Part shown: in pieces, positions 27,604-37,964 of the stretch
Layout of the letters: each line of letters starts with the position of its first letter
Position numbering within the stretch: position 1 is the stretch's first letter
IMG/VR virus record: IMGVR_UViG_3300020446_000026
Span: 1-39,147 of that record
DNA: 39,147 nt
Origin: a virus
Reading direction: 5' to 3' (one strand)
Notes under the pieces: model-generated
Told to the model about the DNA's origin: nothing
The model's input: only the letters and a program-made list of their open reading frames with translations
Databases searched by the model: none
Position numbers and translations under genes: made by a program

Positions 27604-28297
27604 TATCACAAGAGGTGAAGCATTACCTGATGTTTGGTGTACTTCAATCGATGATCCACAAAATCGCTTACCCAGTAATTATTCTTGGCCATCAGAGTTA
27701 GGAAAAAAATTTAATCTACGTGTGCTTAATTGCGGAAAAAGCGGCACTTCAAACAAATATATTTGTAAACAAATGCTGGATGCTAATTTAACACCTAATG
27801 ACATTGTTGTTTTTATGTGGACCTATTTTGCTAGAACGTGTGTGCTTGATGATCCAGAAGAAAAAAGAATTATTCCTAATTATTTGGCGTGGAAAGAAAA
27901 AGACAATAAAAATATTTCTAAGACAAATAGAAAACATCTGCAACATATGTTTGAATATTGTGAAAATTATTTTAGAAATTATTTTACTTGGCAAGATTGT
28001 TTCTATGAGTCTTTACAACAAATGAATTTTGCAAAATTATATTTAGATTCAAAAGGAATCAAAAACTATCATACAACTTGCGAACAACTTCCTTATAGAG
28101 GTACAATTACAAAACAAACCAGTTGGTTTAAATTAAATGTAGAAAAGGAAGTTTTATTTGATATGCCTCAATGGAATACTGTTAATTTAAAACAAATTAA
28201 TTTATATGATAATAATGCGGCTGATCAAGACCATCCTAGTGTTAAAGCACACAAAAAAATAGCAAAAGATATTTACAAATTTATATCAAAGGATTGA
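27569..28297 (+). CDS. SGNH/GDSL-type hydrolase, 242 aa
   Basis: The ATG at 27569 lies inside the end of the previous gene (35-base overlap in another frame). Catalytic signatures of the SGNH family are visible: the nucleophile Ser12 in F-G-C-S-I-T right after the first strand, the block II glycine in N-C-G-K-S-G (about 53-58), and the Asp/His pair D219-x-x-H222-P near the C-terminus. No signal peptide, so it acts in the cytoplasm or on the virion. Family members are esterases or acetylesterases, and in glycan clusters they often remove O-acetyl groups; the block III Asn is not obvious. Its 3' end converges with the methyltransferase gene and overlaps it by 17 bases. Confidence 0.82.
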   Translation: MSTKRIVAFGCSITRGEALPDVWCTSIDDPQNRLPSNYSWPSELGKKFNLRVLNCGKSGTSNKYICKQMLDANLTPNDIVVFMWTYFARTCVLDDPEEKRIIPNYLAWKEKDNKNISKTNRKHLQHMFEYCENYFRNYFTWQDCFYESLQQMNFAKLYLDSKGIKNYHTTCEQLPYRGTITKQTSWFKLNVEKEVLFDMPQWNTVNLKQINLYDNNAADQDHPSVKAHKKIAKDIYKFISKD

Positions 28298-29339
28298 ATT
28301 TTCCAATAAGCATGTATCTTGTTCCTCGAGTATCTGCTACTTGATCTTCTTGTAACACTTCTGCCCTTTCAGGTAATTGCTTTTTAAAATCTTCCAAGCT
28401 ATTTACACAATTTATATGTCCTTGAATATCGAACATATTGTTAGACTGAAAAGCAAAATAGCAATCACTTGATAGTTTTGCTGATTGATAAAATTTTCGT
28501 CTGTGTGGGTTGTCCTGAGAATATCCTTTAGGATGCACCGCATCTGTTTCCATTGAACTGAATCTAAACCAAGGCCATTCTTTCATAGGTTGCATGTGTT
28601 CACATGATGTGTTTATAATTAAATTTGTCTTTTGATATATGTCTTTGTATTTTTCAAAAACATCTCCGCTTACATAGTCTATGTTTTTATAGTTTATAAA
28701 AAATCTATTTTTTGCAATATTTAAAGATTTCTTATCTATGTCCATACAAACAATTTTGTTTACACGGTTTGCTAGTTGTGGTACTAGTATACTACCGTAC
28801 CAACTACCCCATATTACAACATTACTATGTTCATTTAAAATATCTAATTTATCTATCTTGTCTAGTAAAGCTGTTTTAGAAGCAATTTGATTATCACTAA
28901 AACTATCAAATATATCTTCTTTCAGATTAGGTTGATCTTTTATAGTTTTAAGAACATTATACAAAATGTCTTTTTGAATTTCTGGATTTGTTATATTAAG
29001 TGTTGAATCGTAAAAATTGCATTCGTTTCCATCAGCAATACTTTTTAAAATGGGTAATACCTTTTCCAGCTCAACCATTGCTTTTATGTCATCTTGTATA
29101 GTTATTATTTGTCTATAAATTTCAAAATGGTTGTTGTCTCTAATACTTTGCAATATACGTAAATATTTTCTACTAAATTCAGAATTGTTATTTAAGCAAG
29201 CCAGTATAGTTTTAAAAAGAGATGAATAATCTTCATCTCGTGCATAAGTCATTATTTTATCTACTGTATCTAAATTTACATTTCTATTGCTTACACTAAG
29301 AATGTTCTTTACAAATTTTAAATTTTCTTTATCTAACAT
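28281..29339 (-). CDS. SAM-dependent methyltransferase-like protein, 352 aa
   Basis: Last gene of the 12-gene minus-strand cluster; its ATG overlaps the carbamoyltransferase stop (TAATG) and GAGGAAAT precedes it. Residues 1-165 are helical and of unknown function. From about 173, a class I methyltransferase Rossmann core is visible: motif I as V-V-I-W-G-S-W-Y-G (174-182), then the acidic end of strand 2 in C-M-D-I-D (198-202), and later G-D-V near 225. N-T-S-C-E-H-M near 244 occupies the position of motif IV. It may methylate the product or an intermediate of the cluster. The substrate is unknown and the N-terminal extension is unusual. Confidence 0.7.
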   Translation of the reverse strand: MLDKENLKFVKNILSVSNRNVNLDTVDKIMTYARDEDYSSLFKTILACLNNNSEFSRKYLRILQSIRDNNHFEIYRQIITIQDDIKAMVELEKVLPILKSIADGNECNFYDSTLNITNPEIQKDILYNVLKTIKDQPNLKEDIFDSFSDNQIASKTALLDKIDKLDILNEHSNVVIWGSWYGSILVPQLANRVNKIVCMDIDKKSLNIAKNRFFINYKNIDYVSGDVFEKYKDIYQKTNLIINTSCEHMQPMKEWPWFRFSSMETDAVHPKGYSQDNPHRRKFYQSAKLSSDCYFAFQSNNMFDIQGHINCVNSLEDFKKQLPERAEVLQEDQVADTRGTRYMLIGKFNPLI

Positions 29340-37121: not shown

Positions 37122-37124
37122 GTT

Positions 37125-37964
37125 TTACAGTTCATCTAGTATAGGTTGAATGTTTGGCTCAGTAATGGATCTTTTCCAATAAACACTTCCACCATCTATA
37201 ATACTCTTATCTCGGTGATAAATTATTTCTTTACCATAGTATTTACACTCTTGTATTATCCTTGGTGCAGGATCAAATGTTTCTTTTGTATATACATATG
37301 TGTCAAAAACACCTAACAAGTTTTGGACTGGCACAAATATATTATTGTAATCAGGATTGACATATTTTGCATCATATGTTAAGATACCGTAATTAGGAAA
37401 ATTTGGAAGTGCCTTTTCTGCTGACGCATAATATTTGTCGTTAGTACCAAAAAACAAATATTTAAATTGTATGTCTTCAATGTGTGATTTATAAATATTA
37501 AAATTTATACGTTTTTCGAAGTGCGATCCTACACCGTTTGGATAAACTTCAGTATCACAAAGATCAACAACTTGTCTAGGTTTGTAAAAGTCTATTGCTT
37601 TAGGATAAAGTGTTGGATGATTTTCTGAGTACACGCTGATAACTTTACCACCAAATAGTTGTTTTAGTATCTTCTGTTGTGTATCATTATAGTCTTTAAA
37701 ATTTTGCCAACTTAGTGTCATCATGCTACGTCCTAGTATTAATGTCACTTCATCTATATGATCTTCATAACTATCTATCGATACATTATTAAAATTTATA
37801 TATTTTGTTTTGATAGCTTCTATATATTGTTCTTCACTAAAATTTCTATGTCTTATTATTACAACCTGTGCAGGGTAACCAGCTTTGTTAAGCAAGTCAC
37901 AATATTCATAACTATAGTACAATAGTCCGTCAACTGGTTTACTTGTTACAACAATGTTAATCAT
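37125..37964 (-). CDS. GT-B-like glycosyltransferase candidate, 279 aa
   Basis: First gene of the minus-strand cluster; AGGTGA precedes the ATG. The N-terminal half has a Rossmann-like pattern beginning I-N-I-V-V-T-S-K. The C-terminal part contains F-D-P-A-P-R-I-I-Q-E-C at 230-240 with E239 and then Y-Y-G-K-E-I-I, a pattern like the donor-binding E and G of GT-B enzymes (GT4-like). It is shorter than typical GT-B proteins (about 350-400), so a full two-domain fold is uncertain. No signal peptide. Donor and acceptor unknown. Only 3 bases separate it from the twitch-like gene. Confidence 0.55.
   Translation of the reverse strand: MINIVVTSKPVDGLLYYSYEYCDLLNKAGYPAQVVIIRHRNFSEEQYIEAIKTKYINFNNVSIDSYEDHIDEVTLILGRSMMTLSWQNFKDYNDTQQKILKQLFGGKVISVYSENHPTLYPKAIDFYKPRQVVDLCDTEVYPNGVGSHFEKRINFNIYKSHIEDIQFKYLFFGTNDKYYASAEKALPNFPNYGILTYDAKYVNPDYNNIFVPVQNLLGVFDTYVYTKETFDPAPRIIQECKYYGKEIIYHRDKSIIDGGSVYWKRSITEPNIQPILDEL

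Follow-up and report, generated by a model that had tools for sequence, protein, structure and literature searches.

A twelve-gene phage operon with a conserved core and a probable role in sugar tailoring

Gene layout of the operon

The window considered here is the whole stretch of viral DNA analysed, 39,147 nucleotides of the IMG/VR record IMGVR_UViG_3300020446_000026 (positions 1 to 39,147). Its minus strand carries twelve genes, g1 to g12, running from 37964 down to 28281 (Table 1), which probably form a phage-borne, modular sugar-tailoring operon. A preliminary description of the same DNA had listed twelve tightly packed minus-strand genes; all of them are present, with neighbours spaced by -20 to +15 bases. 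Its family calls were also borne out, as matches or models were obtained for the glycosyltransferase, radical SAM (S-adenosylmethionine), DegT, carbamoyltransferase and, weakly, methyltransferase genes. The gene order lies well beyond chance expectation, because the core recurs in dozens of other contigs. The g8 gene probably starts at the ATG at 33183 rather than at the GTG at 33225. The small protein g4 matches phrog_31495, annotated as of unknown function (E=6e-25), and a relative was present only in locus L005 among the first 84 loci.

Table 1. Genes and promoter-like sites of the operon and its surroundings (aa, amino acids; PLP, pyridoxal phosphate)
Feature	Position	Strand	Description
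g1	37125..37964	-	GT-B-fold glycosyltransferase (predicted), 279 aa; core gene that opens the operon
g2	36762..37121	-	free-standing SPASM-like Fe-S protein of 119 aa; g3 partner
g3	35984..36778	-	radical SAM core protein, 264 aa; C25-C29-C32 motif
g4	35663..35980	-	small protein, 105 aa, hydrophobic segments; accessory
g5	34590..35666	-	DegT-type PLP sugar aminotransferase, 358 aa; core
g6	33861..34574	-	nitroreductase-fold protein, accessory type 1
g7	33180..33857	-	nitroreductase-fold protein, accessory type 2
g8	32410..33183	-	nitroreductase-fold protein, accessory type 3 (ATG taken as start)
g9	31682..32413	-	nitroreductase-fold protein, separate subfamily
g10	30841..31701	-	radical SAM enzyme of 286 aa, probably with a twitch domain; best-conserved gene of the core; sugar dehydrogenase candidate
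g11	29339..30844	-	NodU/TobZ-family O-carbamoyltransferase, 501 aa; core
g12	28281..29339	-	SAM methyltransferase-like protein, 352 aa; core
SGNH/GDSL-like hydrolase	27569..28297	+	weak Pfam match, E=0.0066; convergent neighbour
x14	26833..27603	+	possible glycosyltransferase-like; DGDAD motif by eye, no family match
further radical SAM protein	25479..26918	+	Pfam Radical_SAM E=4e-8; phrog_14086 E=1e-13
promoter-like site	38045..38073	-	TTGACA-17-TATTAT, TG precedes second hexamer; lies 80 bases upstream of g1
divergent promoter-like site	38018-38046		TTGACT-17-TATAAT, for the plus-strand gene opposite g1

Core enzymes g1, g5, g11 and g12

No family match for g1 was found in Pfam. Its AlphaFold model (predicted local distance difference test, pLDDT, 94) has a GT-B glycosyltransferase fold of two Rossmann domains, and the best structural match is PimA (Z 15.6, 3.9 A over 248 residues), followed by BshA (14.9) and HepE (14.8). 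The g5 protein matches the DegT family profile of Pfam (E=8e-88); its PLP lysine K182 is invariant among relatives, as are D153 and E152. The closest solved structures are 7b0d, QdtB and WbpE, and the relatives of g5 are sugar aminotransferases. In g11, both carbamoyltransferase domains of Pfam score above the cut-off (C-terminus, E=7e-66), phrog_1601 is matched with E=7e-106, and the relatives retrieved include GdmN, the novobiocin enzyme and TobZ. Its HxxxH metal motif (H111, H115) and two arginines of the catalytic region (R357, R388) are invariant among relatives. Both the aminotransferase and the carbamoyltransferase are unmistakable. The g12 protein shows a weak match to Methyltransf_25 of Pfam (E=0.005) and conserved positions G178-W180-G182, D200 and N243-T-S-x-E-H-M.

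The presence of a carbamoyltransferase together with a glycosyltransferase raises the question of DNA or nucleotide modification, in which both enzymes would decorate hydroxymethylated bases of the phage DNA, as in 5-carbamoyloxymethylcytosine. A phage-type carbamoyltransferase of the same broad family, found on phage contigs, is known to act on hydroxymethylcytosine (PMC8670742), and g1 also matches T4 DNA alpha-glucosyltransferase (Z 13.7), although this is only one of many GT-B matches. However, the hydroxymethylcytosine system accompanies a thymidylate-synthase homologue, and this partner is missing from nearly all related contigs here: a domain of the thymidylate-synthase/deoxycytidine monophosphate hydroxymethylase type was found on one of 20 such contigs, which are fragments and make the absence no more than suggestive. 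In the examined stretches of the cultured phage Mosig, which carries a homologous operon, no thymidylate-synthase homologue is annotated, and only a flavin-dependent thymidylate synthase occurs. Moreover, carbamoyltransferases beside glycosyltransferases are typical of unmodified contigs (PMC8670742), and the operon sits among tail genes. Nucleotide modification, one of the outcomes named in the preliminary description, is poorly supported, and DNA decoration is highly improbable.

Radical SAM enzyme g10

The g10 protein matches the radical SAM family, and in 38 aligned sequences its CxxxCxxC cysteines (C25, C29, C32) are invariant, and so are four extra C-terminal cysteines (C199, C218, C251, C254), which would ligate one auxiliary Fe-S cluster. 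The g10 model (pLDDT 82) has BtrN as its top Foldseek match; a second comparison gave BlsE (Z 11.9), BtrN (11.2), SuiB (10.4) and anSME (10.3), with SpeY and DesII also among the matching structures. BlsE belongs to a nucleoside antibiotic pathway. BtrN oxidises 2-deoxy-scyllo-inosamine, an amino-cyclitol, at a hydroxyl to a ketone (PMC9012708). Thus, g10 is a candidate ketone-forming sugar dehydrogenase, a proposal that draws on one model of moderate confidence.

A viperin identity was considered for g10 and rejected: the pVip models match residues 16-97 only (E=2e-10) and not the full length. The match to the viperin model of NCBIfam (E=3e-7) represents resemblance of the radical SAM core. 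We know of no viperins with auxiliary-cluster ligand cysteines like the four C-terminal ones of g10.

These similarities bear on another possibility, that of a diffusible small molecule, aminoglycoside-like or a nucleotide analogue, made in infection against competitors or host defences. The enzyme mix does resemble aminoglycoside assembly; the radical SAM core of g10 is viperin-like by sequence, and BlsE comes from antibiotic synthesis. However, the short extent of the pVip match and the four invariant cysteines speak against a nucleotide-analogue enzyme, and the cluster contains no transporter and no resistance gene, including one for self-resistance, so that a diffusible product, like the small metabolite of the preliminary description, is unlikely.

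Split g3/g2 pair and nitroreductase-fold proteins

The g3 protein matches Radical_SAM of Pfam (E=1e-5), and its three motif cysteines are kept in 120 of 120 relatives. The g2 protein gives a match to SPASM below the cut-off (E=0.0045), while its cysteines 7, 29, 30, 86 and 90 are kept in all 123 relatives. Out of 125 genes of the g3 type, 115 have a SPASM gene next to them, with 63 in one order and 52 in the other.

The four nitroreductase-fold proteins named in the preliminary description were recovered, g6, g7 and g9 by Pfam (E=5e-4, just under the cut-off, and 4e-8 and 3e-13, both above it) and g8, which has no Pfam match, through a BLAST alignment with g7 over about 215 aa (E=2e-9). The family profile A3 matches solved nitroreductases (E=4e-8). 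The PS-(K/N)-N motif of g6-g9 lines up with that of the nitroreductase family, and binding of flavin mononucleotide is putative. Mutual identity of g6, g7 and g8 is 22-27% (22-24% for g6 against g7 or g8), with g9 further apart, while orthologues in other phages are 42-77% identical within each type. Such orthologues occur in 35 loci for g6 (42-75% identical), 11 for g7, 22 for g8 and 24 for g9 (52-61%). Judging by these values, the types are distinct, separately maintained proteins and not recent copies, because low mutual identity is combined with high-identity orthologues for each type.

SPASM enzymes frequently act on peptides, and the operon might therefore encode a pathway for a ribosomally synthesised and post-translationally modified peptide (RiPP), in which radical SAM/SPASM pairs and SagB-like flavin proteins would modify a phage peptide or a tail-fibre protein. 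This agrees with the scores of SuiB, anSME and PqqE for g10 (Z 10.4-10.1) and with a weak similarity of g7 to SagB (E=0.0013). Yet the operon holds no gene for a precursor peptide and no gaps to house one, although a precursor encoded at a distance is conceivable, and its constant part consists of the aminotransferase, glycosyltransferase and carbamoyltransferase, whereas the nitroreductase and SPASM genes vary. A peptide product is unlikely. The antibiotic, RiPP, viperin and hydroxymethylcytosine explanations are all weaker than sugar tailoring.

Conservation across viral loci

Scanning of viral contigs with g10 gave 130 related stretches for the g10 of the window and 186 for that of Mosig. 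Genes were assigned by profile and counted in the 77 g10-chosen loci with enough flank; near-identical contigs are included, and the loci are not independent events. Among these, g11 and g12 were each present in 76, DegT in 74 and g1 in 68, with g11 directly following g10 in 67. Anchoring on g1, used as a control against the choice of loci by g10, yielded DegT in 36 of 36 well-flanked loci and g10 in 31 of 36; the other five lie on contigs whose g10 came from another anchor. The homologues are not scattered singly, because co-occurrence of the core genes is conserved, and the coherent pathway put forward in the preliminary description is strongly supported by this co-occurrence in related viral loci.

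The variable part of the operon comprises zero to four nitroreductase genes and zero to three radical SAM/SPASM pairs per locus, as well as PP-loop ATPase, further radical SAM, SGNH and glycosyltransferase genes. GT8-like genes occur in related operons, and a glycosyltransferase-type gene is found in 48 of 65 bounded runs. A nitroreductase gene is lacking in eight well-flanked loci on the cluster strand, or in seven when either strand is counted. The minimal version, L085, has an open reading frame of the nitroreductase family ahead of g1 at the contig end. A QueC-like PP-loop ATPase (L031:1041-1814) lies within related clusters, with relatives in 20 of the 77 loci, and is absent from the cluster of the window. 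Its neighbours there are a small unknown protein, f18, and members of a radical SAM family that is twitch-like.

Phage lineages and cellular genomes

A virion protein of 4955 aa (174-15041, phrog_10938) and the tail fibres of the window resemble those of the jumbo myophages PA5oct and Atu_ph07, and a capsid of the Gp23 family is present on related contigs. The earlier label "T4-like" is thus only partly apt: it fits the capsid, whereas the tail fibres and the large virion protein match jumbo myophages. In a set of 18 long related contigs, eight carry the 4955-aa type of protein and seven others the pelagimyophage VrlC; none has both. The gene set is present in two phage lineages, the jumbo-phage type of the window and the pelagimyophages. 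The trees of g10 and DegT each split the jumbo-type from the pelagimyophage group. The nearest relative of the window is L009 by g10 and L005 by DegT, and this difference suggests shuffling within its lineage.

In the cultured Pelagibacter phage Mosig EXVC030M (MT647606), the operon occupies 60990-71305, with tail-fibre genes on one side and VrlC genes on the other. Mosig_00082-00094 include g1, g3/g2, DegT, g10, g11, g12 and two nitroreductase genes. This operon is homologous to that of the window, but Mosig is a VrlC-type phage and its accessory set differs. The annotation is piecemeal, with g1 and g10 labelled "molybdenum cofactor biosynthesis enzyme". On the opposite strand next to the Mosig cluster (L084:6702-12955) lie hydroxylase, dioxygenase, peroxiredoxin, FMN reductase, aminotransferase and desaturase-like genes.

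No genuine cellular genome with the core genes was found: a scan of representative-genome contigs with short peptide patterns gave one locus, on a phage contig. This contig, PAHC01000009.1 (L085), bears the operon and tail genes within a Rhodobiaceae metagenome-assembled genome, probably through binning contamination, and a cellular origin was rejected on the genomes searched. Profiles of g10 and g1 matched only that assembly across 289 genomes of its class. A nitroreductase search, which had no positive control, was empty, and a plasmid search gave no match. As none of the real bacterial genomes searched yielded the core genes, the cluster looks like a pathway that viruses maintain.

Neighbouring genes and promoter-like sites

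The operon lies beside host-recognition genes, with tail-fibre genes close to it. Its 3-prime neighbours (SGNH, glycosyltransferases and the extra radical SAM gene) probably share its functional region. The SGNH family is found near g10 in 44 of the 77 loci, and genes of this family, as well as of the family of the radical SAM protein at 25479..26918, also occur inside related clusters; homologues of x14 are present in many related loci. Three consecutive tail-fibre genes (15679-21149) share roughly 130 N-terminal residues, a domain with relatives among Atu_ph07 proteins, and differ in their C-terminal parts (collar; none known; Peptidase_G2-like).

The promoter-like site upstream of g1 has 11 of 12 consensus matches and is defined by consensus only. 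Sigma-70-like sites with at least 11 matches lie upstream of 20 of 66 related operons, compared with 1.5% in shuffles, the loci being related to each other. Use of T4 late promoters was considered and rejected for the window, where TATAAATA is not enriched (4 versus 9.7 expected); the late motif is also found upstream of 17 of the 66 operons. One copy of TATAAATA, at 38641-38648, stands just ahead of an oxygenase-like frame, which is the next gene on the plus strand and is truncated where the window ends.

Proposed pathway and product

A modified sugar, one of the products considered in the preliminary description, is the best-supported class, given the GT-B fold of g1, the proximity of g10 to BlsE and BtrN, the sugar-type DegT and the TobZ/novobiocin type of g11. 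The product would probably be a rare, decorated amino-sugar. Each reaction, the reaction order, the substrate and the acceptor are set out here as proposals. With one auxiliary Fe-S cluster, g10 would remove two electrons from a carbinol of a sugar or cyclitol, giving a ketone in a BtrN-like manner, and g5 would then aminate this ketone. Hydroxyl or amino groups would be capped by g11 through carbamoylation and by g12 through methylation, and g1, with nearby glycosyltransferases, would place the sugar onto a glycan. The g3/g2 pair and the four nitroreductase-fold proteins would serve as a changeable tailoring layer that differs from phage to phage. The glycan might be located on the infected cell surface, altering the receptor or recognition by competitors, or on the phage's own tail fibres; the position of the operon favours an acceptor tied to recognition. 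It had been supposed that the pathway must tap a keto-sugar intermediate of the host. This is not needed if g10 forms the ketone, as DegT needs a ketone and g10 would supply the step that seemed to be missing.

Several points weigh against sugar tailoring. For g10, the Z scores of SPASM enzymes that act on peptides come to within about 1.5 of those of BtrN and BlsE, and in the moderately confident g10 model residues 25-31, beside CxxxCxxC, fall below pLDDT 50. No sugar nucleotidyltransferase is present in the window, the family assignment of g12 is weak, and we are aware of no established function for nitroreductase-fold proteins in tailoring sugars. Few anchors were used to find the loci, most of which are fragments and some of which are near-copies of a single genome. 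Gene content, linkage, the intact catalytic signatures, the location next to genes of host recognition and the occurrence in two lineages are observed; the chemistry built on them is proposed.

Relation to known systems and significance

In pelagimyophages, an island named the host recognition cluster contains radical SAM cassettes as well as glycosyltransferases, and a role in altering the O-chain of the host has been proposed for it (PMC7029224, Zaragoza-Solas 2020). The main text of that paper makes no mention of a nitroreductase, carbamoyltransferase or aminotransferase. In contrast to that island, the genes described here have a fixed core in one operon, which occurs also in the jumbo-type lineage. 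Butirosin and other aminoglycoside pathways use the same enzyme types (BtrN, DegT, TobZ), and the g10 model is near BtrN; however, similarity to the operon is fold-level or distant only, no cyclitol synthase is present, and the operon is phage-borne. No published description of this operon was found, and the literature on carbamoyltransferases with pelagimyophages, or with nitroreductases and radical SAM enzymes, gave nothing relevant.

Phages alter host surface sugars with one or few genes. Here, some ten genes, radical SAM enzymes among them, form a conserved operon that is common to a jumbo-type lineage and to pelagimyophages of the abundant SAR11 bacteria. It is tentatively suggested that a cluster specific to phages, built from five fixed core genes and an exchangeable layer of radical SAM/SPASM pairs and flavin-fold enzymes, may make a family of amino-carbamoyl sugars not known from cells, which phages would have diversified alongside their receptor-binding genes. 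The cultured phage Mosig carries a version of the operon, which makes it testable. The candidates for new enzymes are g10, the g3/g2 pair and the four types of nitroreductase. If the sugar-tailoring proposal is true, marine phages would keep their own carbohydrate chemistry beside their host-recognition genes.
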